Shown here one piece after another: positions 27,626 to 40,446 of a stretch of 64,000 nt of DNA. The stretch is from assembly GCA_039030075.1 (NCBI GenBank), contig JBCCEW010000007.1, forward strand, positions 186,001 to 250,000. The letters are read 5' to 3'. Source of the DNA: Myxococcota bacterium. GTDB lineage: Bacteria > Myxococcota_A > UBA9160 > SMWR01. A model generated the notes under the pieces. That model saw only the letters and a list, made by a program, of their open reading frames with translations, did not search any database and was not told the origin of the DNA. Position 1 is the stretch's first letter. Each line of letters begins with the position of its first letter. Both the position numbers and the translations under genes were made by a program.

Positions 27626-28389
27626 TGGGCGACACCGCCCCTTCCGACCTCTCGAGTCATGCCCGGTTCGCGCTGAAGATGCAGCGCGCGGTGGGGAGAG
27701 TTGTATCTCCTCTCACCACCGCCGCCGTGGGTTGGTTCCTGCGCGGATTCCTACGGCTGCGTTTCGTCGACATCGCGCCGCTGCGCCGGGCCTATCGAGA
27801 GCATCGCCAGCGCTCGGACGCGCCGCTGCTGATCTGCGGCAACCACCTGACGATGATCGACTCGGCCCTGATCGCCTACGCCCTCGCGTCGCCCGCCTGG
27901 TACGTCGCACACTTCTCGTCGCTCCCGTGGAACATGCCGGACCGCACCACCTTCGCGTCGAAGCCCTGGCAACGCCTGTTGACCTACTTGTACAAGTGCC
28001 TGCCCGTGGCACGCGGAGGGTCGCGCGAAGAAGTGGCGGGATCGCTGGCGCGCTTCGCCCATCTCCTGCAGCGCGGCGACGTCGGCCTCGTGTTTCCCGA
28101 AGGCGGCCGCAGCCGCACCGGCCGGATCGAGGTGGAGAGCGCGGCCTACGGCGTCGGCCGGATGGTGAAAGCCGTGCCCGGTTGTCGGGTGTTGTGCGTC
28201 TACCTCCGTGGCGACGCGCAGCAGGAGTACAGCGGGGTTCCGGAACGCGGCGACACGATTCGGGCGCGCATGGCGTGGCTCGAACCCAAGAGTGACCACG
28301 GCGGCTTGCGCGGTTCACGCGACATCGCGCGGCAGATCCTGGCGCGTCTCTCCGAACTGGAGCAGGAGCACTTCGATGCCGCCGCCTGA
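27625..28389 (+). CDS. PlsC-like 1-acylglycerol-3-phosphate acyltransferase family protein
   Basis: The 254-residue protein has the acyltransferase motifs in order: the His-Asp box GNHLTMID (His74, Asp79) and the phosphate-binding FPEGGRSRTG (about 157-166). An N-terminal hydrophobic helix (about 30-45) would place it at the inner membrane. It could transfer the chain built on the ACP to a glycerol phosphate or another hydroxyl or amine acceptor. The GTG start (TAGTG junction with the ACP stop) and a 14-bp overlap with the carboxylase indicate tight coupling. Confidence 0.85.
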   Translation: MGDTAPSDLSSHARFALKMQRAVGRVVSPLTTAAVGWFLRGFLRLRFVDIAPLRRAYREHRQRSDAPLLICGNHLTMIDSALIAYALASPAWYVAHFSSLPWNMPDRTTFASKPWQRLLTYLYKCLPVARGGSREEVAGSLARFAHLLQRGDVGLVFPEGGRSRTGRIEVESAAYGVGRMVKAVPGCRVLCVYLRGDAQQEYSGVPERGDTIRARMAWLEPKSDHGGLRGSRDIARQILARLSELEQEHFDAAA

Positions 28390-31300
28390 GGATCCGCGAC
28401 GAGCACGTCCGATCCAACGCATCGCCATCGTCAACCGCGGTGAAGCCGCGCTGCGCTGCATCCGAACCGTGAAGGCGATGCGCGCGCGCGATGGCTCGGA
28501 GCTCACCTGCGTTGCGCTCTACACCGATCCCGACCGCGACGCGCCCTTCGTGCGCCAGGCCGATGCGGCCCTGCGCCTGGAGCCGACGGGCGCGACCGCC
28601 GTCAGTGCCTACCTCGATCACGAGGGTCTGCTCGAAGCCCTGCGCCGCTGCGAGGCCGATGCCGTCTGGCCCGGTTGGGGGTTCGTCGCCGAGGACGCCG
28701 CTTTCGCCGATCGGGTGAGCGAGGCGGGGATCACCTTCCTCGGTCCGAGGGGCGACGTGATGCGCGCGCTGGGCGACAAGATCGGCGCGAAGCACGTGGC
28801 CGAGGGCGCCGGTGTGCCGGTGATCCCTTGGAGCGGCGGCGAGGTCGAGAGCGTCGAAGCCGCCCGGGAACACGCCGAACGCATCGGCTACCCAGTGGTG
28901 CTCAAGGCGAGCGCGGGTGGTGGGGGACGCGGCATCCGCGTGGTCAGCTCCGAAGCGGAGCTGGCGCCGGCGTTCGAGAGCGCCCGTTCGGAAGCCCGAA
29001 CCGCGTTCGGCGACGACCGCCTGTTCGTCGAATCGAGGCTGCGCCGCGGTCGCCACATCGAGGTGCAGATCGCGGCCGATCTCCATGGCACCGTGTGGGC
29101 CCTCGGCAGTCGCGACTGTTCGGTGCAGCGCCGACACCAGAAGATCCTCGAAGAGGCTCCGCCGCCCAGCCTCGACGCAGGGCGCATTCACGATCTGCTC
29201 GACGCCGCGAAGCGGCTCGCCTCGAGCGTCGGCTACACGGGCGTCGGCACCGTCGAGTATCTGGTCACGGACGACGAGGTCGCCTTCCTCGAGGTGAACC
29301 CCCGGCTCCAGGTCGAACACGGGCTCACCGAGGAACTCACGGGCGTCGACCTGGTCGAGCTGCAGATTCGCATCGGCAACGGAGAAGCCCTCGCACCCGA
29401 ACCTCCTCCGAGCGAGGGAGCCGCGATCGAGGCCCGGGTCTGCGCCGAAGATCCGGAGGCCGACTTCCTGCCCTCGCCCGGGCACATCGCCCGCTTCGAC
29501 CCCGCACTCGGTCGCGGCATCCGCATCGATACCGGCGTGGGGGTCGGCTCCGACGTCCCGCCCGACTTCGACTCCCTGATCGCGAAGGTGATCGCGATGG
29601 GGAAAACGCGCGAGGAAGCGCGGGCGCGCCTCGCCATGGCGCTGCGCGACTTCGACCTCGTGGTCGAGGGCGGCGCGTCCAACAAGGGCTACCTGCTCCA
29701 CCTGATCGAGACCGAGCGCTACCGCAGTGGCGACGTCGACACCGAGTGGCTCGACTCCCACCCGGAACTGCGCGAGGGAGACGCCACCTACGCCGTCCCG
29801 GCGCTGTGCGCGGCGGCGGTGCTTTCTTACCAGCAGGGTCGCGATCGCGCACGCCGCGAGATCTTCGCCGACCCGGCGCACCTGACCCCGGCCTCGGCTC
29901 CCGCTTCGACCGGGCAACACATCGACCTCTCGTTCCGCGGTGAGTCCTACGAGCTCGACGTCTTCGCGATCGGCGCCTGGCGCTACCGCGTCCACCTCGA
30001 CGGAAGGGTCGTCCCCGTAGCCCTGCGCAGCGACGGCCCCCACCGCGCCAGCTTCGAGTTCGGCGGCAAGAGCCTACGCCTGCTCTTCGATCACACCGAC
30101 CAGGGGCTCCGGGTCGAGGTCGAGGGGCACCCCTATCGCTTCGCCACCGGCTCCGCCGGCCACGTGCGCTCGGGGACGCCGGCGATCGTCGTCGCCCTCG
30201 ACGTCGTCCCGGGTGACCGCGTCGACGCGGGTTCGATTCTCGGCCGGCTCGAAGCGATGAAGATGGAGATCGGCTTCGAGGCACCGATCAGCGGCGTGGT
30301 GAAGGAAGTGCTCGTCGCTGCGGGCCAGCAGGTGGAAGCCGGCGAGCTGCTGCTGAAGATCGAGCCCGACGGAGACAGCGACGACGCATCGGCTCCGCGC
30401 CTCGCGATCGAGGCCGAGGTCGATCCGCTCGACGGCTTCTTCGTCGACGGGGTCCCGGACCTGGCCCAGGCGGAACAGGCGGCCCAGGGCGAGCGTCGGG
30501 CGGCGATGGACGCGGCGCGCGAGGAGATCCGCCGCGTGCTGATGGGCTACGACGTCAATCCCGACCGCGGTGAGAAACTCGCCGCCTTCCTGGAAGCGCC
30601 GCTGCCCGACGGCTTGAGTGATGGCTTCCGATGGGAGCTCGCCGAGGTCCGCCGCGAGCTGACACTGTTCGCCGACATCGAGCAGCTCTTCAGCCGCGCG
30701 CCGTTGCCGCGCCCCACCGGGGAAGCCGGCGCTTCGACGCGTGCGCTCCTGCTGGACGCGATCCGCCGCTACCGCGATGGCGGCGAGTCCGTGCCCGAGG
30801 GTTTCCGGGAGATCTGGCTGCGCGCCCTGGGGCACTTCGGGGTCGACTCCCTCGAGGCGACCGGCGCGCTCGAACGCGCCTTGCTGCGCCTGCTGGCGTC
30901 CCAGCTCGCTCCCGAACTGCGACGGCGGCTCGTGCTCGGGTGCCTCTCCCGCATCCACGCCCTCGCGGCCACGGGGATCGACCTGGGCGGCGATCGCGCC
31001 CTCGACGACGTGCTCGCCCGCATTGCCGGCCTGCGGGGCCTCGTCTCCGACGCCATCGCCGACCTCTGCCTCGAAGCGCGCTACACGATCTTCGAGGGGC
31101 CGCGCCTCGAGGTCCAGGCCGAGCGCACCTCGAAAGAGGTCGAGAGCTGGCTGGCTGCGGCCGAGGCGTCGCTCACCCACCCGCCCGAGTCGGTCCTGGC
31201 GCACCTCGCCAACGCGCCGCGGGCCGTCTTCCATCGCGTCGGGCGCTGGCTCGAAGACGACGACCCGCGACGCCGTGCGATCGCCGTCGCCGCCCACGTC

Positions 31301-33997
31301 CGTCGTCTCTACGGGCACCAGCGGCCCAACGCGCACACGTCGGGCGTGGTCGGTCCGGTCCACGTCGAGCGCATCGACCTTCCGGGTGAACGCATCGTCC
31401 TCGGCAGCCTGTCGCGCGTCGATGCCCTCGGCCCGACCCTCGAGCGGCTCGGACGCGCGGCGAGTGCCGCATCGAATCGGACGCCGACGCGCCGCGTGCA
31501 CGCGATCGAGCTGCTCGTGCCGTTGCACGACGACACCGACGAGGCCGCCGTTTCGGAAGCCATCGCTCCGCTCCTCGGCCCGTCCCTGTCGACCCAGCGC
31601 CTGACCCTCACCTTCCTGCGAACGGGCACGCCGCCGACCCACCTGACCTTCGAGCACGAGGGCGCCGGCGCATCTCCGTTGCGTGAGCGCCGCGATCTCT
31701 GGGGCATCCATCCGGACACGGCCGCCCGCATCGACCTCGATCGCCTGCGCAAGTTCGACGTCGAGCGCCTCGACGCGCCCGAGGATCTCTATTGCTTCCA
31801 CGCCCGCAGTCCCGAGATCCCCGACGACGAGCGGCTGCTGGTGTTCGCCGACGTGCGCGGACGCTCCCCCGACGACACCGATGCCCACGAGGCGAGCCTG
31901 CACGTGCCGGCGTTCGAGCGGGACTTCTTCGAGGCCGCGCGCTGCCTGCGCAATCACCTCCAGCTCCGCGACCCGCGCCGACGCCTGCAGTGGAATCGGT
32001 TGATGCTGTTCGCGACGCCTTCGGTCTACCTCGAGCAGGAGCTGGTCGAGTCCCTGGCGCGTCGACTCTACCCCGCCACCCGCCACCTCGGACTCGAGAA
32101 GGTCGTGGTTCGCTTGAACGTGCTGGATCGGGAAGCGCCCGAGTCACCGGCCCGCCCCGTCGAGATCGTCTTCATGGATCCCACGGGCAGCCGCCTCGAG
32201 CTCTCCTGGCGCGAGCCTCACCACGAAGCCCTCGAACCCGCCCAGACCTACGAGCGCAAGGTGGTCGCGGCCAGGCGCCGACGCCTCGTCTATCCCTACG
32301 AGATCGTCCGGATGCTCACCGGCGCACCGGACAACGTCGACCTCGCCGGCGACGGCGGCCTCCCGGCCGGTCACTTCGAGGAGTTCGACCTCGACCCCGA
32401 TCATGCGGCGCCGAAGGCGAAGAGCGTCGCCGGACGTCCGCCGGCCCAGAACACCAGCGCGATCGTCTTCGGCGTCATCGACACCCCGACCGAAGCGATC
32501 CCGGAAGGCATGCGCCGGGTGCTGGTGCTCTCGGACCCGACGCTGGGCATGGGGTCGCTCTCGGCCGCAGAGTGCGATCGCATCGTCGCGGCCATCGACC
32601 TCGCCGAGGCCGAGGGCCTCCCGGTCGAGTGGGTGCCGGTTTCGAGCGGCGCGCGAATCGCGATGGACAGCGGCACCGAGAACCTCGACGCTACCGCGCG
32701 GGTGGTGCGACGGATCGTGACCTTCACCCAGGCGGGTGGATCCATTCACGTGATCGTGCAGGGCGTGAACGTCGGCGCCCAGAGCTACTTCGACGCCCTC
32801 TCCACCATGCTCCAACACACCCGAGGCGTGCTGATCATGACGCCGTCGGCTTCGATGGTGCTCACGGGCCGGGCCGCACTCGCGGCTTCGGGGTCCGTGT
32901 CGGCGGAAGACGAGGTCGGGATCGGGGGCTACGAGCGCATCATGGGCCCGAACGGCCAGGCCCAGTTCCTCGCACGGAATCTCGCCGAAGCCTACGGGAT
33001 CCTCTATCACCACTACCGCTACGCCTACGTGGTGCCCGGAGAACTCGCGCCGCGACCGCTCCCGACCGACGATCCGATCGATCGCCGCGTCACCGAATCC
33101 GAGACGCGCCGCGCCCACGGCCACGACTTCGACCGCATCGGCCAGATCTTCGACACCACTGAGAACGCGGAGCGCAAGCGCCCCTTCGCCATGCGCGCGC
33201 TGATGGAGTCGGTGGTCGACCACGACTTGGGCCACCTCGAGCGCTGGCGCGGCTGGCGCGGCGCCGAGACCGCCATCGTCTGGGATGCCTGCCTCGGTGG
33301 CCAGCCGATCAGCCTGATCGGCATCGAGAGCCGCAACCTGCCGCGCGCAGGCGCGCCGCCCACCGACGGGCCGTCTTCCTGGACCGGCGGCACGCTGTTC
33401 CCCGGGTCGAGCAAGAAGGTGGCGCGCGCGCTCAACGCGGCGAGCGGTGTGCGCCCGGCGGTGGTCCTGGCCAACCTCTCGGGGTTCGACGGTTCGCCCG
33501 AGTCCATGCGCACGCTCCAGCTCGAGTACGGTGCCGAGATCGCGCGTGCCGTCGTGAACTTCAGCGGCGTCCTCGCCTTCCTGGTGGTGTCTCGGTATCA
33601 CGGCGGCGCCTACGTCGTGTTCAGCCGCGAGCTCAACCCGGGCCTGCGAGCCGCCGCCGTTGAGGGCTCTTTCGCGTCGGTCATCGGCGGCGGGCCGGCC
33701 GCGGCGGTGGTCTTCTCGCGCGAGGCACGCGCTCGAGCGCTGCGCGACCCCGAGATCGCGCGCCTTCAGCGGCTGTCCCAGCGGCACGACGACCCCGAGG
33801 CCCGCGCCGCCTTCGAGGCTGCCTACCGCCAGGTGCTCCTGCAGAAGCAAGCCGAGATCGGAGCGGAGTTCGACGCCATCCACTCGGTGGAACGCGCCCT
33901 CGAAGTGGGATCGCTCGAAGGACTGATCGCCGCGGAGGAGATCCGTCCCTTCCTCGCCGGTCTGGTGCGCGGCGGCGAGATTCCCCAGCGCGACTAG
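28376..33997 (+). CDS. Single-chain biotin-dependent acyl-CoA carboxylase (BC-BCCP-central-CT fusion)
   Basis: The 1873-residue protein holds every part of an acyl-CoA carboxylase. A biotin carboxylase domain (about 15-460) has the ATP-grasp loop KASAGGGGRGIRV (from Lys177) and EVNPRLQVEH. A biotinyl domain has EAMKMEIGF with Lys629 as the biotin site. An uncharacterised helical region spans about 690-1250. A carboxyltransferase domain (about 1270-1860) includes the SSGARIAMDSG and VVLANLSGFDGSPESM segments. This order and the large central region recall eukaryotic acetyl-CoA carboxylase rather than the split bacterial enzyme. The likely product is malonyl-CoA or a longer 2-carboxyacyl-CoA. 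The ATG lies inside the PlsC gene; the stop shares CTAG with the converging gene. Confidence 0.85.
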   Translation: MPPPEDPRRARPIQRIAIVNRGEAALRCIRTVKAMRARDGSELTCVALYTDPDRDAPFVRQADAALRLEPTGATAVSAYLDHEGLLEALRRCEADAVWPGWGFVAEDAAFADRVSEAGITFLGPRGDVMRALGDKIGAKHVAEGAGVPVIPWSGGEVESVEAAREHAERIGYPVVLKASAGGGGRGIRVVSSEAELAPAFESARSEARTAFGDDRLFVESRLRRGRHIEVQIAADLHGTVWALGSRDCSVQRRHQKILEEAPPPSLDAGRIHDLLDAAKRLASSVGYTGVGTVEYLVTDDEVAFLEVNPRLQVEHGLTEELTGVDLVELQIRIGNGEALAPEPPPSEGAAIEARVCAEDPEADFLPSPGHIARFDPALGRGIRIDTGVGVGSDVPPDFDSLIAKVIAMGKTREEARARLAMALRDFDLVVEGGASNKGYLLHLIETERYRSGDVDTEWLDSHPELREGDATYAVPALCAAAVLSYQQGRDRARREIFADPAHLTPASAPASTGQHIDLSFRGESYELDVFAIGAWRYRVHLDGRVVPVALRSDGPHRASFEFGGKSLRLLFDHTDQGLRVEVEGHPYRFATGSAGHVRSGTPAIVVALDVVPGDRVDAGSILGRLEAMKMEIGFEAPISGVVKEVLVAAGQQVEAGELLLKIEPDGDSDDASAPRLAIEAEVDPLDGFFVDGVPDLAQAEQAAQGERRAAMDAAREEIRRVLMGYDVNPDRGEKLAAFLEAPLPDGLSDGFRWELAEVRRELTLFADIEQLFSRAPLPRPTGEAGASTRALLLDAIRRYRDGGESVPEGFREIWLRALGHFGVDSLEATGALERALLRLLASQLAPELRRRLVLGCLSRIHALAATGIDLGGDRALDDVLARIAGLRGLVSDAIADLCLEARYTIFEGPRLEVQAERTSKEVESWLAAAEASLTHPPESVLAHLANAPRAVFHRVGRWLEDDDPRRRAIAVAAHVRRLYGHQRPNAHTSGVVGPVHVERIDLPGERIVLGSLSRVDALGPTLERLGRAASAASNRTPTRRVHAIELLVPLHDDTDEAAVSEAIAPLLGPSLSTQRLTLTFLRTGTPPTHLTFEHEGAGASPLRERRDLWGIHPDTAARIDLDRLRKFDVERLDAPEDLYCFHARSPEIPDDERLLVFADVRGRSPDDTDAHEASLHVPAFERDFFEAARCLRNHLQLRDPRRRLQWNRLMLFATPSVYLEQELVESLARRLYPATRHLGLEKVVVRLNVLDREAPESPARPVEIVFMDPTGSRLELSWREPHHEALEPAQTYERKVVAARRRRLVYPYEIVRMLTGAPDNVDLAGDGGLPAGHFEEFDLDPDHAAPKAKSVAGRPPAQNTSAIVFGVIDTPTEAIPEGMRRVLVLSDPTLGMGSLSAAECDRIVAAIDLAEAEGLPVEWVPVSSGARIAMDSGTENLDATARVVRRIVTFTQAGGSIHVIVQGVNVGAQSYFDALSTMLQHTRGVLIMTPSASMVLTGRAALAASGSVSAEDEVGIGGYERIMGPNGQAQFLARNLAEAYGILYHHYRYAYVVPGELAPRPLPTDDPIDRRVTESETRRAHGHDFDRIGQIFDTTENAERKRPFAMRALMESVVDHDLGHLERWRGWRGAETAIVWDACLGGQPISLIGIESRNLPRAGAPPTDGPSSWTGGTLFPGSSKKVARALNAASGVRPAVVLANLSGFDGSPESMRTLQLEYGAEIARAVVNFSGVLAFLVVSRYHGGAYVVFSRELNPGLRAAAVEGSFASVIGGGPAAAVVFSREARARALRDPEIARLQRLSQRHDDPEARAAFEAAYRQVLLQKQAEIGAEFDAIHSVERALEVGSLEGLIAAEEIRPFLAGLVRGGEIPQRD

Positions 33998-34775: not shown

Positions 34776-36263
34776 ATGGGCGTGCGAACGATCGTGGGAG
34801 TCGCGGGGCTGGTCTTCTCTTTGGGGGCCGGCACGGCGCAAGCAGAGATCGTATTGGAAGGAACGCGGCAGGTGACCCTGGAATGGGACGCCGCGACGGG
34901 AGCCATCGGGTACTACGTCATCGTGACGCGCGACGGCGGGGCCGCCCGCGTCGAGGCGATCTCGATGGACCCGAAGCAGAAGCTGAAGGGGCGCTTCGGC
35001 GAATCCCTGGTGGTCCAGGTAGCGGGCTTCGACAGTGAAGGCACGGCGGGGCCGATCTCACCGCCCTCCGAGGCGCTGCGCTTCGCGCGCCGGGGCAGCG
35101 GCGCGAACCCGCCGCCGGACGAAGACCCGGGCTCCGGGGATCCGGGCAACGGCGGCGGCAACGAACCGCCGCCGACCGGCAGCGGCGTTCGCTTCGACCA
35201 CGACGGCGATGGCGTCTCGGACTGGGTCGTCGGTTTGGGTGGAGCGCGCACGCTGTGGCGCCGCCAGGCTGGTGGGACCATCGTCGAGGCCACGCTACCG
35301 CCGGGGCCTGGCGCCCTGGTCGCGCGCGGAGACTTCGACGGGGACGGCATTGCCGATCTGGTGTGGCACGACCCGGCGGCGGGTGTCGTCACGCTGTGGC
35401 CGATGGGCGCGGGCGGGGCCAGCGGTGCGCGCACCTTCGCGACCGATGGGCTGGCCGCCGCCGAGCGGTGGCTGGTGGCCGGGTCGGGCGACATGGACGC
35501 TGACGGGCGCGACGAGCTCGTCTGGTTCAGTCGCGTTGCCGGGCAGACGGTGGCTTGGAGCCTCGAGGGAGCCGAAGCCACCGCGGTGACCGCCGACGGA
35601 CACTTCGGTGCCTGGAGTATCGTCGCCATCGACGACTTCACCGGAACGGGCACGGCCCGGTTGCTCTGGCTCGACGAGCGCTTCCGCGAGCTCGAACTCG
35701 ATGGCGGCAACCTGGGCGGATTGGACCCGGCTTGGCGCGTCGCCGGCAGCGCGGATCTGGACGGCATCCCGGGCGCGGAGCTCGTGGTCCGACACCGGGA
35801 TACGGGCGCCGTCGAAGCCTGGTCCCTGAGTGCCGGATCGGTGAGTGGAGGTGCGGTCGGGATGGACCCCCTCGAAGCCGCCGACACGCTGCTCGCCGGC
35901 GGCGACTACGACGGGGACGGGGTCGAAGATCTGCTCCGCGCGGGCGGCGGAGGCGACATCGGGCTGTGGCTCTCCGGCGCGTCGCTGCTCGACCCGGTCG
36001 AGCCCTTCCTGGCACCGGGCGCTGCAGTCCTCGCCGGGCGTGGTTCGGACGACAGCGTCTTCCGACGCCGGTTCTGTAGCGGCGACCTCGACGGGAGCGG
36101 CGCCGTGGATGGCTCCGACTACGCGGTGCTCCAGCGCTGCTTCTCGGCCGATTCCGTGACGGGAGAGTGCGCAGACGTCGACATGGACGGCGATGGGGTC
36201 CTTTCCCTGGAGGACGCCAACCTGTTCATCGAACGCTTCCAGGGGCGCCGCTGCGGCGGCTGA
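34776..36263 (+). CDS. Secreted FG-GAP/VCBS-like repeat protein with C-terminal dockerin-like domain
   Basis: The 495-residue protein begins with a signal peptide (MGVRTIVGVAGLVFSLG, cleavage near AQA-E). A fibronectin-III-like segment (about 25-100) follows, then a Pro/Gly linker. Several beta-propeller-type repeats with Ca-binding loops such as DFDGDGIADLVW, DMDADGRDELVW and DYDGDGVEDLLR come next. The last 60 residues contain two Asp loops, GDLDGSGAVDGSDYAVLQ and DVDMDGDGVLSLEDANLF, spaced as in type I dockerins. No sorting tail is seen, so it may be held at the surface through the dockerin-like part. GGGGAG precedes the ATG. A strong terminator follows. Confidence 0.7.
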   Translation: MGVRTIVGVAGLVFSLGAGTAQAEIVLEGTRQVTLEWDAATGAIGYYVIVTRDGGAARVEAISMDPKQKLKGRFGESLVVQVAGFDSEGTAGPISPPSEALRFARRGSGANPPPDEDPGSGDPGNGGGNEPPPTGSGVRFDHDGDGVSDWVVGLGGARTLWRRQAGGTIVEATLPPGPGALVARGDFDGDGIADLVWHDPAAGVVTLWPMGAGGASGARTFATDGLAAAERWLVAGSGDMDADGRDELVWFSRVAGQTVAWSLEGAEATAVTADGHFGAWSIVAIDDFTGTGTARLLWLDERFRELELDGGNLGGLDPAWRVAGSADLDGIPGAELVVRHRDTGAVEAWSLSAGSVSGGAVGMDPLEAADTLLAGGDYDGDGVEDLLRAGGGGDIGLWLSGASLLDPVEPFLAPGAAVLAGRGSDDSVFRRRFCSGDLDGSGAVDGSDYAVLQRCFSADSVTGECADVDMDGDGVLSLEDANLFIERFQGRRCGG

Positions 36264-36331
36264 GCCCCCCTGTCGGGGGCTTCCTGGCCTGGGGTAGGCG
36301 ATCCGCGGAAACCCTCCAGACCGGGAAGCGT

Positions 36332-36371
36332 AGAGAGGCCTCGCGGCGTTGCCGCGGGGCCTCTTTCCTTT
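36332..36371 (+). terminator. Intrinsic terminator after the surface-protein gene
   Basis: A stem of about 16 pairs (36332-36347 with 36351-36366, G-U pairs included) with a GTT loop is followed by TTTCCTTT. It lies between converging genes. A shorter 7-bp hairpin overlaps the stop codon at 36263. Confidence 0.65.
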
Positions 36372-36404
36372 GGCGAGCGCGGATCGGGCGCCCTGGACCT
36401 GCGC

Positions 36405-36974
36405 TTACGTGCGGTGGCGACCGCGCAGGCCAAGACCCAACAGACCGAGCCCCAAGAGGGCTGCCGTCGTCGGCTCTGGCCCGATGTAGGGCGAGGTGCT
36501 GGCGTCGGCGGCGCCGAAGAATCCATTCACGGCCGTATCGAAGCTGGGGAAGCTGCCGGGTGCGTCCGCGGAGAACGTCAGCACGATGGTGCTGGTATAG
36601 GCGTCCGCCGCCGCCCCCGTCGGGTTGGGAGCGATCTGATCGACGAGTCGGCAGAGGTCCGGCTGGTCGCACTGACCCTCGAGGGCGCCGACCGTCCACG
36701 GGGCCGAGCCGCCGAAGGACGCGAGCTGCGCCGCCGGTGCGTCGACCGACGCGTTGCCAACCAGAGCGACGTCGTAGCCCAGGGTCAGTATCGCGCCCGA
36801 GGCGCTCTCGCCGGCGTTCACGAGGAGGTCCACCACGACGGTGATGGTCTCACCGGGGATGTAGCTCGCCTTGTCCGTCGAGATCGCGACCGAAGCGGCG
36901 TGGGCCGTCGCTACCAGCCCGAGGACAGCGAGGACAGCGAGCATCCCGAGTACGGGATGAGGGACGCGCGTCAT
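36405..36974 (-). CDS. PEP-CTERM surface protein with cohesin-like ectodomain (paralog 1)
   Basis: From ATG 36974 the 189-residue protein has a signal peptide (cleavage near AHA-A) and an immunoglobulin-like ectodomain. It ends in a PEP-CTERM signal: GPEPTTAALLGLGLLGLGL followed by RGRHRT. The ectodomain opening ISTDKASYIPGETITVVVDL and SGAILTLGYDVAL resembles the first strands of cohesin modules; this is my inference. A Cys pair (QCDQPDLCRLVDQIAPNPTG) is shared with the neighbour. The protein should be cut and anchored by the exosortase encoded at 38638. A terminator lies only 20 nt before its ATG. Confidence 0.8.
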   Translation of the reverse strand: MTRVPHPVLGMLAVLAVLGLVATAHAASVAISTDKASYIPGETITVVVDLLVNAGESASGAILTLGYDVALVGNASVDAPAAQLASFGGSAPWTVGALEGQCDQPDLCRLVDQIAPNPTGAAADAYTSTIVLTFSADAPGSFPSFDTAVNGFFGAADASTSPYIGPEPTTAALLGLGLLGLGLRGRHRT

Positions 36975-36993
36975 GGGGCCCCTCCTCGAAACG

Positions 36994-37026
36994 AAAAGAG
37001 CCCCGAGGTCGAAACCTCGGGGCTCT
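36994..37026 (-). terminator. Strong intrinsic terminator between the two PEP-CTERM paralogs
   Basis: A perfect 13-bp stem (36997-37009 with 37014-37026) with a 4-nt loop is followed, on the minus strand, by TTTT. It ends transcription from the 37634 gene. It stops 20 nt short of the next gene's ATG at 36974, leaving room only for its Shine-Dalgarno sequence. Confidence 0.75.
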
Positions 37027-37073
37027 CTCATTCACACGGTCTCCGCAGAAGCGGAGCCCGGCGCCTCAGCTGA

Positions 37074-37634
37074 TTAGCTGCGGCGGCGGCCGCCCAGCGC
37101 GAGGCCGAAGAGGCCCAGGCCGAGAAGCGCAGCCGTGGTCGGCTCCGGCACGATCGTGACACTCGCGTTGGCGTTTGCGGCGCCAAAGAAGTTGTTCACG
37201 GCCGTCGTGAAGTCGATCGTGCCAGCGTTGCCAGCCAGGAACGTCAGGACGACGCTCGAAGCATACGCCGGGCCCACTGCGGCACCCGTCGGGTTCGGAG
37301 CGATCTGGTCGACGAGGCGGCAGAGGCCGGGGGCGTCGCACTGACCCTGGAGGGCCGCGACGGTCCAGCCAGCCGAACCACCGAACGACGTGATCTGAGC
37401 CGCGCCGGTATCAACGGATTCGCCCGAAACCGTCCCGGTGTCACCCGAGCCGAAGCCCAGCGTCACGATCGCACCCGAGGCGCTTTCGCCGTCCGCGATG
37501 GCCAGGTCGACCGTCACGGTAATCGTCTCACCAGTGATGTAGCTCGCCTTGTCCGTCGAGATCGCGATCGAGGCCGCGTTGGCCGAAACCGCGAATCCGA
37601 GAACGGCGACTACCGCAATCAAAGTCCGCTTCAT
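37074..37634 (-). CDS. PEP-CTERM surface protein with cohesin-like ectodomain (paralog 2)
   Basis: The 186-residue protein starts with a signal peptide (MKRTLIAVVAVLGFAVSANA) and ends VPEPTTAALLGLGLFGLAL plus GGRRRS, a clear PEP-CTERM signal. Its ectodomain is strongly similar to the next gene downstream: ISTDKASYITGETITVTVDL, SGAIVTLGF, the QCDAPGLCRLVDQIAPNPTG loop, and NNFFGAANA. The two arose by tandem duplication. A GAGGAGAG Shine-Dalgarno site precedes the ATG. A cohesin-like fold is inferred from strand pattern only. Confidence 0.8.
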   Translation of the reverse strand: MKRTLIAVVAVLGFAVSANAASIAISTDKASYITGETITVTVDLAIADGESASGAIVTLGFGSGDTGTVSGESVDTGAAQITSFGGSAGWTVAALQGQCDAPGLCRLVDQIAPNPTGAAVGPAYASSVVLTFLAGNAGTIDFTTAVNNFFGAANANASVTIVPEPTTAALLGLGLFGLALGGRRRS

Positions 37635-37745
37635 TGTGACATCTCTCCTCAGTTGTTGCGTCTGCTGCCGGTCAGGCCCGGATCGACGCGTGCGTTAGAA
37701 ACCAATCAGAAATCGAGAATCAAAAAGTGCTTGAACCGTTCAGGA

Positions 37746-38156
37746 TCAGCTGCAGGGCGGCGTGCCGGCGCAACCGAGGCCCGAGGGACCGGGGGCACCC
37801 GTACCCGTGAACTGGTTCAGGAAGCCCGGGTTGAAGTCCGTACCGTCGACGTCGCCGTCGCAGTCGATGTCGGTACCGGTGCCGCCGTCCGTGCCACTGC
37901 CGGTGAAGTCGGACAGGAAGCCGGGGTTGAAGTCCGTGCCGTCGATGTCGAAGTCGTTGTCGAAATCGCCATCACAAGCGTTGCCGTAGCCATCAGTGTC
38001 GGTGTCGCAGTTGATCGGGGCGGCATTCGCCACGCCGCTGCAGTTGTCGAGCACGTCCGGAACGCCATCAGAGTCGGCGTCGGGAGCCAGCCCGGCGAAG
38101 GCCGGGAAACCGACCATGAGGGTGAAAATCATCGTTGCCAGTACACCAAACTTCAT
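37746..38156 (-). CDS. Secreted Asp-rich Ca-binding protein with thrombospondin-3-like and dockerin-like loops
   Basis: The 136-residue protein has a signal peptide (MKFGVLATMIFTLMVGFPAFA) and then DADSDGVPDVLDNC, a thrombospondin type 3 repeat. Two near-copies of an Asp loop follow, FDNDFDIDGTDFNPGFLSDF and DIDCDGDVDGTDFNPGFLNQF. The duplicated D-x-D-x-D-G-x-D-F loops match the pairing of dockerin Ca-binding loops. Cys residues sit at the repeat ends. No membrane anchor or sorting tail is present. GAGGAG precedes the ATG. It may bind a neighbouring surface protein. Confidence 0.75.
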   Translation of the reverse strand: MKFGVLATMIFTLMVGFPAFAGLAPDADSDGVPDVLDNCSGVANAAPINCDTDTDGYGNACDGDFDNDFDIDGTDFNPGFLSDFTGSGTDGGTGTDIDCDGDVDGTDFNPGFLNQFTGTGAPGPSGLGCAGTPPCS

Positions 38157-38637
38157 TTCGTCTTTACTCCTCGGTGTTACGGGTATTGGGCATTAGGCCT
38201 GATTCGTAGGCTCTTGTCCAGCTTTACCTGGGTCTGCATCCAGCCCCGGCACCCCCGGGGGTTCGCCTCCGCATCGGTCTGAATGCGTCCCGAATCCTAC
38301 ACGCGATCTCGCGCTTGCCTCCATGACTCTTTCGTGGCTTTGCGACCGCGACCGAGTGACAGGTGTTTTCAGGACTTATCGGGAGCTTGGCTCGGATTCC
38401 GAAGGGCTCTGAAACCTGCCTGGAAGGCGCCTGCGATGAAACTCCCGTGTCTGACCGGGCATTGGCTGGATCCCAGCCGTCGCCCGTCGCAGTTCCAGTC
38501 TGCAAACCCCATGCCCGAGCGGGGAAAAATCGTAACTCCCTGAAAATGCAGTGAAACGCGATCCGAGCGACCCCCCGAAAGGTGGAAAAAGTGTTCCCAG
38601 GGAAACTCAGGTTAAGAAAACCGTTTCCCTCGGCCCC
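38157..38637. other. 481-bp non-coding region, less G+C-rich than its flanks
   Basis: I find no convincing gene. The right end holds a probable exosortase terminator (38586-38629). The left end must carry the promoter of the minus-strand gene at 38156, but I see no good -35/-10 pair. A run of C then G (near 38252) forms a short palindrome. The A/T content is visibly higher than in surrounding coding sequence. Confidence 0.5.
38586..38629 (-). terminator. Terminator-like structure after the exosortase gene
   Basis: On the minus strand GGGAAAC (38629-38623) pairs with GTTTCCC (38606-38600), with an inner GGTT/AACC pairing. It is followed after 9 nt by TTTTT (38590-38586). The spacing between stem and T tract is longer than ideal. 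Confidence 0.45.
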
Positions 38638-40446
38638 TTAAACCCCCCTGGGGGATCCGATCTCCTTCAGGGCGGGTCCCAATGCCCCCGCAAACTGCTC
38701 GAGGCGCGCCCGAGCGCGGTCGCGTGCGATCGGCTTGGAGGTGAGGAGCGGGGTCGAGAGCCGGACCGCCACGGGCAGTTCTTCGCGAGCCGCCGGCGTC
38801 GCATCCAGGGCGAGCAGGGAGCGCGTGGTCTCTTCGAGCACCCCCGGGGAGTCCTCGAACCAGTGGGCCACCAGCATCCGCCGGGACCCGAGGCGCAGGG
38901 TCCGGAACGTCGCCGGGCGGCCGGCGAGCGCGTGGGTCTCCTCGCGCTCGACCGTCCAGCCACTGCCTGGGTAGGCGACCTTCGGAGAGAGGTAGCTGCG
39001 GACGCGGTTGTCCAGGTCGGCCTGGCCGACGAAGACGTCGACGGCTTGCTGCCCGGCCTCGTAGCGACGGTGGAGGGTCTGGCGGAACTTCGCCTTGCCG
39101 AGGAACAGCCAGTCGACCTTGATGTCGGTGCCCTGCCAGTCCCCGAACTCGAGCGGCAGCGCCCCGGCCACGGCCGCCGGCTCGGTATCGGGGCGCTCGA
39201 AGGGCGGCAACCAGGAGAGGGCGAACAGCGCCAGGCAGAATGCGAACACACCCGCAAAGCGAGGCTCGATCCGCGCGAGCGGGGCGCCGGCACCCCGCAC
39301 CGCCCGCTCCCACGAGGACACCGGGCCCGGGTCCTTCCACACCCGCTCGAGCAGACCGTCGATCGCGTAGAGCAGGAGGACCCCGCCGAGCAGCATCACG
39401 ACGCCCTGCAGGTTGTGGATGCTCGAGATGTCGGCGTGGGGGTTGAACACCAGCCCGACGCAGCGGAACCCATTGATCAGGAAGGCGACAAAGGGGGAGG
39501 CGGCCAACAGGGCGACGGCGTGGCCCCCACGCCGTCGGAAGAGTTCGACCATCAGCACGCTCAGCATCCCGAGCGTCTCGATCGAGCGCATGCCGCTGCA
39601 AGTCTCGATGATCTGGTAGTAGCCGTCGCTCATGATCAGGCGGTCGCCGGTGAGCAGGACGTCGAACCCCAGGATCTCGATCAGGAAGGCGGTGAAGCCG
39701 GCGGTCCAGATCTGGAGCTTCCACAGAATGGCGTTGGTCAGGGGCGCCGGGATGGGCACGGCGAACAGCAACACGGCCGCCGGCAGCGCGACCACCCGCA
39801 GCCCGGCGGGCCCGCAGAGCGCGTGAGCGGCCCCCAGGAGCCCGGGGATCAGCGCGATCGCCTGGAGATCCGGCGCGCCGGCCAGCAACGACCAGACGAA
39901 GATCCCGGCGGCCGCGGCGAAGAGCACCGCCGTCCATAGGAAGGGAGCGGGTGCCCCGAAGAGCTTTCCGAGACGCGCGCGGCGCCTCCATACCAGCCAC
40001 GCGCAGAGCCCGAGGACGATCCACGGCGAGCTGTCCGAGGGCTCGAAGAAGAACTCCTCGACCTCGCCGGACAGCAAGACGAGATTGGTCTCCGGCTGAA
40101 ACCCCAGGAGCTCGCGACAGGCGAAGCCCAGCAGCACCAGCGCGCCGGCCAGACCCGCAGCCATCCAGGGGCTGCCTCCCGGCTTCGCCGTCTTCGGGGC
40201 CGGGGCGCCGGGGGGCGCGTCCGGGAGCTTCTGAGATTGCGCGGGGGCGTCGTCCAAGATCTCTTCCAGCAGATCGGTGTCTTCCAACGGATCGGGTCGC
40301 GGCGCGCGAACGGTACCGCGCGAAGCCGCGAGTGTCTGACGCCGAGGTGAGGTCCCGGGTTCCACATCGGCGGAGTCCCGCCTCGACTCCAGGTCGGCCC
40401 GGCGCGGCCCGGGTGCAGGGGGGCCTGGCCCGCGTGGCCTGCCCAA
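38638..40446 (-). CDS. Exosortase with fused C-terminal EpsI domain
   Basis: The 602-residue protein has a hydrophilic N-terminus of about 90 residues, then about eight helices with the exosortase catalytic residues: Cys283 in IIETCSGMRSIE, Arg328 in INGFRCV and His344 in SSIHNLQG. From about residue 425 a soluble EpsI-type domain begins (LPLEFGDWQG, then RSYLSPKVAYPG and VAHWFE). Exosortases cleave PEP-CTERM tails, and EpsI is a usual partner, here in one chain. The start is uncertain: GTG 40365 would remove 27 residues and a divergent overlap with the permease gene. Its probable substrates are encoded just downstream. Confidence 0.9.
   Translation of the reverse strand: MGRPRGPGPPAPGPRRADLESRRDSADVEPGTSPRRQTLAASRGTVRAPRPDPLEDTDLLEEILDDAPAQSQKLPDAPPGAPAPKTAKPGGSPWMAAGLAGALVLLGFACRELLGFQPETNLVLLSGEVEEFFFEPSDSSPWIVLGLCAWLVWRRRARLGKLFGAPAPFLWTAVLFAAAAGIFVWSLLAGAPDLQAIALIPGLLGAAHALCGPAGLRVVALPAAVLLFAVPIPAPLTNAILWKLQIWTAGFTAFLIEILGFDVLLTGDRLIMSDGYYQIIETCSGMRSIETLGMLSVLMVELFRRRGGHAVALLAASPFVAFLINGFRCVGLVFNPHADISSIHNLQGVVMLLGGVLLLYAIDGLLERVWKDPGPVSSWERAVRGAGAPLARIEPRFAGVFAFCLALFALSWLPPFERPDTEPAAVAGALPLEFGDWQGTDIKVDWLFLGKAKFRQTLHRRYEAGQQAVDVFVGQADLDNRVRSYLSPKVAYPGSGWTVEREETHALAGRPATFRTLRLGSRRMLVAHWFEDSPGVLEETTRSLLALDATPAAREELPVAVRLSTPLLTSKPIARDRARARLEQFAGALGPALKEIGSPRGV

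Follow-up and report, generated by a model that had tools for sequence, protein, structure and literature searches.

In cellulosomal cohesin-dockerin pairs, a nine-strand cohesin-type sandwich is matched to a two-fold symmetric dockerin of paired F-hands, and dual-binding dockerins carry duplicated, near-identical recognition segments that provide two similar cohesin-binding faces (PMC5429695). Cohesin and dockerin modules are also found outside cellulosomes (Peer et al., 2009, as cited in PMC5244752), where their function is called unknown in a review on methane-oxidising archaea that has both exosortase and dockerin (PMC5244752). A separate system pairs EpsH-type exosortases with PEP-CTERM substrates (Haft et al., 2006; PMC1569441). 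No literature joining PEP-CTERM with dockerin was found in the papers searched, although these covered few subscription papers, which makes the absence weak evidence of novelty.

The locus analysed here, from an uncultured myxococcal bacterium, appears to encode its own anchoring enzyme and two anchored, cohesin-shaped surface proteins (C and B), into which, by prediction, a small secreted dockerin protein (D) probably plugs. We consider it probable that the genes for the exosortase, D, C and B, in that order, form a surface-attachment operon in which the cohesin-like C and B hold D through its dockerin as a predicted co-evolving matched pair. Docking of D is supported jointly by the fold of the ectodomains, the conservation of the operon and the co-variation of the partners. 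The arrangement is best filed as a variant of the known cohesin-dockerin kind, namely an exosortase-anchored, co-operonic pair. It shares with cellulosomal pairs the sandwich and the symmetric paired F-hand dockerin (both predicted at this locus), and with the dual-binding dockerins (PMC5429695) the duplicated recognition segments. In contrast to cellulosomal pairs, there is a single cohesin-like domain per anchor, there is no scaffoldin, carbohydrate-binding module (CBM) or glycoside hydrolase, anchoring is of the PEP-CTERM/exosortase type, and the pair is co-operonic. The description 'cellulosome-like' in the first-pass annotation was therefore overstated, and cellulosome membership was rejected, since B and C have one domain each and, by Pfam, the only further domains on the dockerin proteins are TSP3 in D and FG-GAP in A. 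Relative to the non-cellulosomal modules of Peer et al. (2009), as cited in PMC5244752, the locus has a fixed operon that includes an exosortase gene, and there are signs that the specificity of the pair is matched; relative to the system of Haft et al. (2006), with which it shares an EpsH-type exosortase and PEP-CTERM substrates, those substrates would be receptors for a co-encoded secreted protein.

Gene order and predicted anchoring

The window, a 64,000-nucleotide stretch of a Myxococcota genome (G000, contig C7, positions 186001-250000), contains the five genes under study (A, B, C, D and the exosortase), all at the positions first annotated. The first gene of the conserved unit encodes an exosortase fused to an EpsI/DUF3485 domain (38638-40446, minus strand). 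Its Exosortase_EpsH domain (PF09721, about 39355-40044) scores 130.5 bits against a cut-off of 25.7 and its EpsI/DUF3485 domain (PF11984, about 38662-39243) scores 67.3 bits, which bears out the exosortase previously proposed for the locus. The nearest NCBIfam model is XrtD (TIGR04152); membership of that family was rejected at 129.9, far under the curated cut-off of 400. The genome has four exosortases and about 66 PEP-CTERM matches over the cut-off.

On the same strand follow D (37746-38156), which consists of a signal peptide, a TSP3 region, a dockerin with two F-hand-type loops and a GPSGLxCAGTxPC tail, and then the tandem paralogs C (37074-37634) and B (36405-36974), which are 67% identical. 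Each has an ectodomain (37152-37577 in C, 36480-36899 in B) and a PEP-CTERM tail (37080-37151 and 36417-36479, respectively); the start codon of B is most likely at 36974, as judged from its signal peptide. Both had been proposed as PEP-CTERM proteins, and both exceed the Pfam cut-off of 20.7 for this domain, at 24.6 bits for C and 22.1 bits for B. Pfam thus places PEP-CTERM tails and an EpsH exosortase side by side, and these assignments, together with the conserved order of exosortase, D and PEP-CTERM gene, point to anchoring of C and B by the neighbouring enzyme. From what is known of the family, the exosortase would cleave their PEP-CTERM tails and fix them at the cell surface or in the extracellular matrix. 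A promoter and terminator scan around B to D gave signals no more frequent than in shuffled sequence. Elsewhere in the window, at 28208-33997, one frame of 1929 residues combines the domains of a biotin carboxylase, a biotin carrier and a carboxyltransferase with a weak ACC-central match, a layout resembling that of eukaryotic acetyl-CoA carboxylase.

Fold of the C and B ectodomains

Neither B nor C gave a match to the Pfam cohesin family (PF00963) at E≤1, and neither reached its curated cut-off. The first-strand motif TDKASY..GET.T.., on which the cohesin reading was originally based, is not specific to cohesins and was rejected as evidence; what sustains that reading is the comparison of profiles and structures. 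The profile of the B/C family aligned with a profile of 16 cohesin sequences at an hhalign score of 40.5 over 143 columns, whereas control ectodomains from 21 other PEP-CTERM proteins of the genome scored no more than 18.1 against the same profile and the reversed cohesin profile scored 13, a comparison that is unequal because the control ectodomains were single sequences. When members of the B/C family were themselves scored singly, they had a median of 17.9 and a maximum of 29.5, against 12.8 and 18.1 for the controls. The best bridge between the B/C family and cohesins was the partner of the D homolog in genome G075 (probability 93 over 125 columns), which has a PNPT segment in common with C. 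Profile similarity to cohesins was not found for the PEP-CTERM ectodomain of G001, a genome of the same genus, taken as a single sequence.

An AlphaFold model of C from an alignment with B only was poor (pLDDT 53); cohesins made up almost all of its PDB matches, although no match had an E below 0.001. Including ten further ectodomains of D-partners in the alignment gave a model with nine strands (pLDDT 72.7, pTM 0.72), which is not fully independent evidence given that the alignment included those partners. In a Foldseek search of the PDB this model matched many cohesins at E of about 1e-6, with a TM of only about 0.5, and other beta-sandwiches (the CLIPPER adhesin domain, integrin and AgI/II) ranked alongside them. 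We conclude with moderate certainty, from the models and the profile comparison, that the ectodomain of B and C has a cohesin-like fold.

The other sandwiches in the Foldseek ranking, and a G001 partner that is not recognisably cohesin, would suit a reading in which D and the ectodomain do bind as a matched pair, with the ectodomain being another beta-sandwich adhesin that does not descend from cohesins and the dockerin-like repeats making contact through a different interface. Cohesins dominate the first structure search and recur in the second, the profile match to them extends over 143 columns and homologs of D score as Dockerin_1, and we regard this reading as very unlikely. A more general possibility is that B and C are PEP-CTERM proteins of the usual matrix or floc type whose beta-sandwich is generic, that D and A are independent secreted proteins that bind calcium, and that the genes cluster only because they share an exosortase and matrix neighbourhood. 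The missing Pfam cohesin match would fit this, as would the abundance of PEP-CTERM genes in the genome and a weak similarity of C to PepA (38.8 bits against an NCBIfam cut-off of 80). The B/C family has 14 members in the genome, including a pair on contig C10 and, on contig C2, a tandem array of six genes (147321-151106; L068:7316-11110) beside which the stretch read contained no dockerin gene, again as expected for matrix proteins. Direct searches of the genome contigs with B/C alignments gave no confirmed match. The order of the genes in other genomes, the presence of Pfam cohesins in the same slot and the co-variation of dockerin and ectodomain, all described below, argue against ordinary matrix proteins, and we judge that explanation unlikely.

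Dockerin repeats and their co-variation with the ectodomain

Paired dockerin-like Asp loops had been noted in the two secreted proteins, and this was confirmed: D has two dockerin-type 12-residue loops, DFDNDFDIDGTD (residues 64-75; 37932-37967, minus strand) and DIDCDGDVDGTD (residues 96-107; 37836-37871, minus strand), and A has a Dockerin_1 domain that passes Pfam. D itself is under the Dockerin_1 (PF00404) cut-off, and its homologs in G002, G007, G028 and G074 pass. Like type I dockerins, D has a pair of F-hand loops whose recognition segments are duplicated, with a repeat identity of 0.75. Across D proteins the repeats have a mean identity of 0.73 within a protein and 0.22-0.28 between proteins or orthologs. 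As the repeat cores were first picked by hand, the test was redone automatically, giving an own-pair score of 68 against 26, with the own pair ranked first in 16 of 24; for D, repeat 1 scored 104 with repeat 2 against a mean of 25 with the others. Repeats that are alike within and unlike between proteins fit dockerins with two similar cohesin-binding faces (PMC5429695).

The Asp loops might instead be no more than calcium sites of the TSP3 kind, serving to stiffen a secreted coat protein. D scores best in Pfam as TSP_3 (22.9, just under the cut-off of 25; the G001 ortholog passes at 32.5), and its best NCBIfam models are the TSP3 cohesion proteins MtsC/MtsD, far below cut-off; a literature search for MtsC in Myxococcus papers gave none. 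However, the best TSP3 match in D covers residues 26-45, separate from the two later loops, and each of those is followed by a hydrophobic segment that is matched within the protein and divergent between species, which calcium binding alone would not require. We therefore find this explanation scarcely credible. On the preferred reading, D would carry a TSP3 calcium-binding module and would be a non-enzymatic coat or cohesion subunit, held by the cohesin-like sandwiches of C and B through a two-fold symmetric and presumably Ca2+-dependent dockerin, the best-supported step of the mechanism.

Similarity of the dockerin half of D correlated with similarity of the neighbouring PEP-CTERM ectodomain (r 0.86, 13 loci). 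With exosortase divergence held fixed, the partial r over the 13 loci was 0.65 (0 of 5000 permutations); an earlier version had used 17 loci and no exosortase control. The half comprising signal peptide and TSP3 showed no clear co-variation under the same control (0.21; 416 of 5000), a difference that generic matrix proteins would not lead one to expect. Between the window and G001, the TSP3 half of D is 78% identical and the dockerin half 32%, while the PEP-CTERM tail is 100% identical and the ectodomain 23%. In a paralog of D on contig C10 of the window's own genome, near B/C-family genes, the dockerin half is kept at 78%. Judged by these comparisons, the dockerin half and the ectodomain are replaced together within the genus, and D and C/B would thus co-evolve as a matched specificity.

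The secreted FG-GAP protein A (34776-36263, plus strand) has three FG-GAP_3 stretches and a C-terminal Dockerin_1 domain (36081-36236) at 24.2 bits against a cut-off of 22.9. The proposal that PEP-CTERM posts capture the dockerin proteins is supported, as predicted binding, for D and is weak for A. The gene for A does not belong to the conserved unit, to which it is convergent, and the dockerin of A shows no shift in G001, where the PEP-CTERM ectodomain is replaced (A dockerin 44% identical, whole A 45%). A was accordingly downgraded from a client equal to D. It has a true dockerin with nothing tying it to B and C, and is a possible additional client, either of the cohesin-like proteins here or of some other cohesin in the genome.

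Recurrence of the unit in other genomes

The locus in G001 is syntenic, with the carboxylase, A, one PEP-CTERM gene, D, the exosortase and an aminopeptidase. Homologs of D were present in 105 of the 118 genomes searched, if every TSP3 match to the profile is included, and in 17 of the best 30 D loci a PEP-CTERM frame lay within about 1.5 kb. Linkage was assessed in a set of 80 loci from Myxococcota, Planctomycetota, Betaproteobacteria and others, retrieved by a search that used only the D alignment and did not select for PEP-CTERM. Of the 66 loci with enough downstream DNA, 32 had a same-strand PEP-CTERM frame after D, mostly within 200 bp, whereas none of the 66 had one downstream on the opposite strand and none of the 62 counted upstream had one there; such strict order is hard to reconcile with clustering of unrelated matrix genes. 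By profile search, 13 loci of the D-only set have an exosortase gene immediately before D in the same orientation, all in myxococcal, deltaproteobacterial or unclassified bacterial MAGs. Exosortase, D and PEP-CTERM gene, in this order and on one strand, thus form a unit that recurs among Myxococcota.

Betaproteobacteria carry the dockerin on a Peptidase_C25 protein that has both TSP3 and Dockerin_1, followed by PEP-CTERM proteins, two of which were tested and pass Pfam Cohesin (PF00963; 26.0 and 29.8 bits), with others close. Many Aquabacterium loci are closely related. Four such loci in Aquabacterium and other Betaproteobacteria (L245, L257, L266, L289) have a small cohesin-like PEP-CTERM gene directly after the C25 protein. 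They share with the window a TSP3-dockerin protein followed by a cohesin-like PEP-CTERM gene and differ in that the client is a large peptidase and the fetched DNA has no adjoining exosortase gene; in this equivalent layout the peptidases would be presented on a cohesin PEP-CTERM anchor. Some genomes have a second, dockerin-only small protein beside a second PEP-CTERM gene, and one myxococcal partner of this kind passes Pfam Cohesin (24.5 against 24.1). The slot next to the dockerin is thus occupied elsewhere by Pfam cohesins, a further point against generic matrix proteins. The window's own genome has three Dockerin_1 matches and a single Pfam cohesin. The latter belongs to a PEP-CTERM protein whose gene, on contig C2, comes right after that of a large dockerin protein, giving the organism an independent pair of cohesin and dockerin.

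Several related arrangements were seen. The large dockerin protein on C2 (L069:4359-10594) has 1878 residues, with TSP3 motifs, a dockerin and a hydrophobic, Arg-rich C-terminus, and a similar pair occurs in G050 (contig C353). In five related Myxococcota loci (L113, L160, L161, L162, L164) two dockerin and PEP-CTERM pairs face each other, one of them with a dockerin-only small protein. Cytochrome c-type (CXXCH) proteins with a TSP3-dockerin end occur at L247 and L269, in the latter followed by a PEP-CTERM gene, and a Planctomycetota MAG contig (L237) has a small TSP3-dockerin gene and then a PEP-CTERM gene.

A further-reaching reading is that exosortase, dockerin and cohesin-PEP-CTERM protein constitute rapidly diversifying matched-pair recognition, serving as a strain- or kin-specific device for cell-to-cell cohesion in Myxococcota. 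Related species would then exchange the dockerin helices together with the cohesin face and keep the anchor and TSP3 parts, as expected of such a device; we rate this reading as quite unlikely. For the favoured surface-attachment operon, the conserved unit joins cohesin and dockerin modules outside cellulosomes (PMC5244752) with PEP-CTERM ectodomains, which mostly have no assigned role, and a natural swap of specificity within one genus makes the questions surrounding both testable with small soluble domains. The unit also offers a Gram-negative route for displaying secreted proteins.
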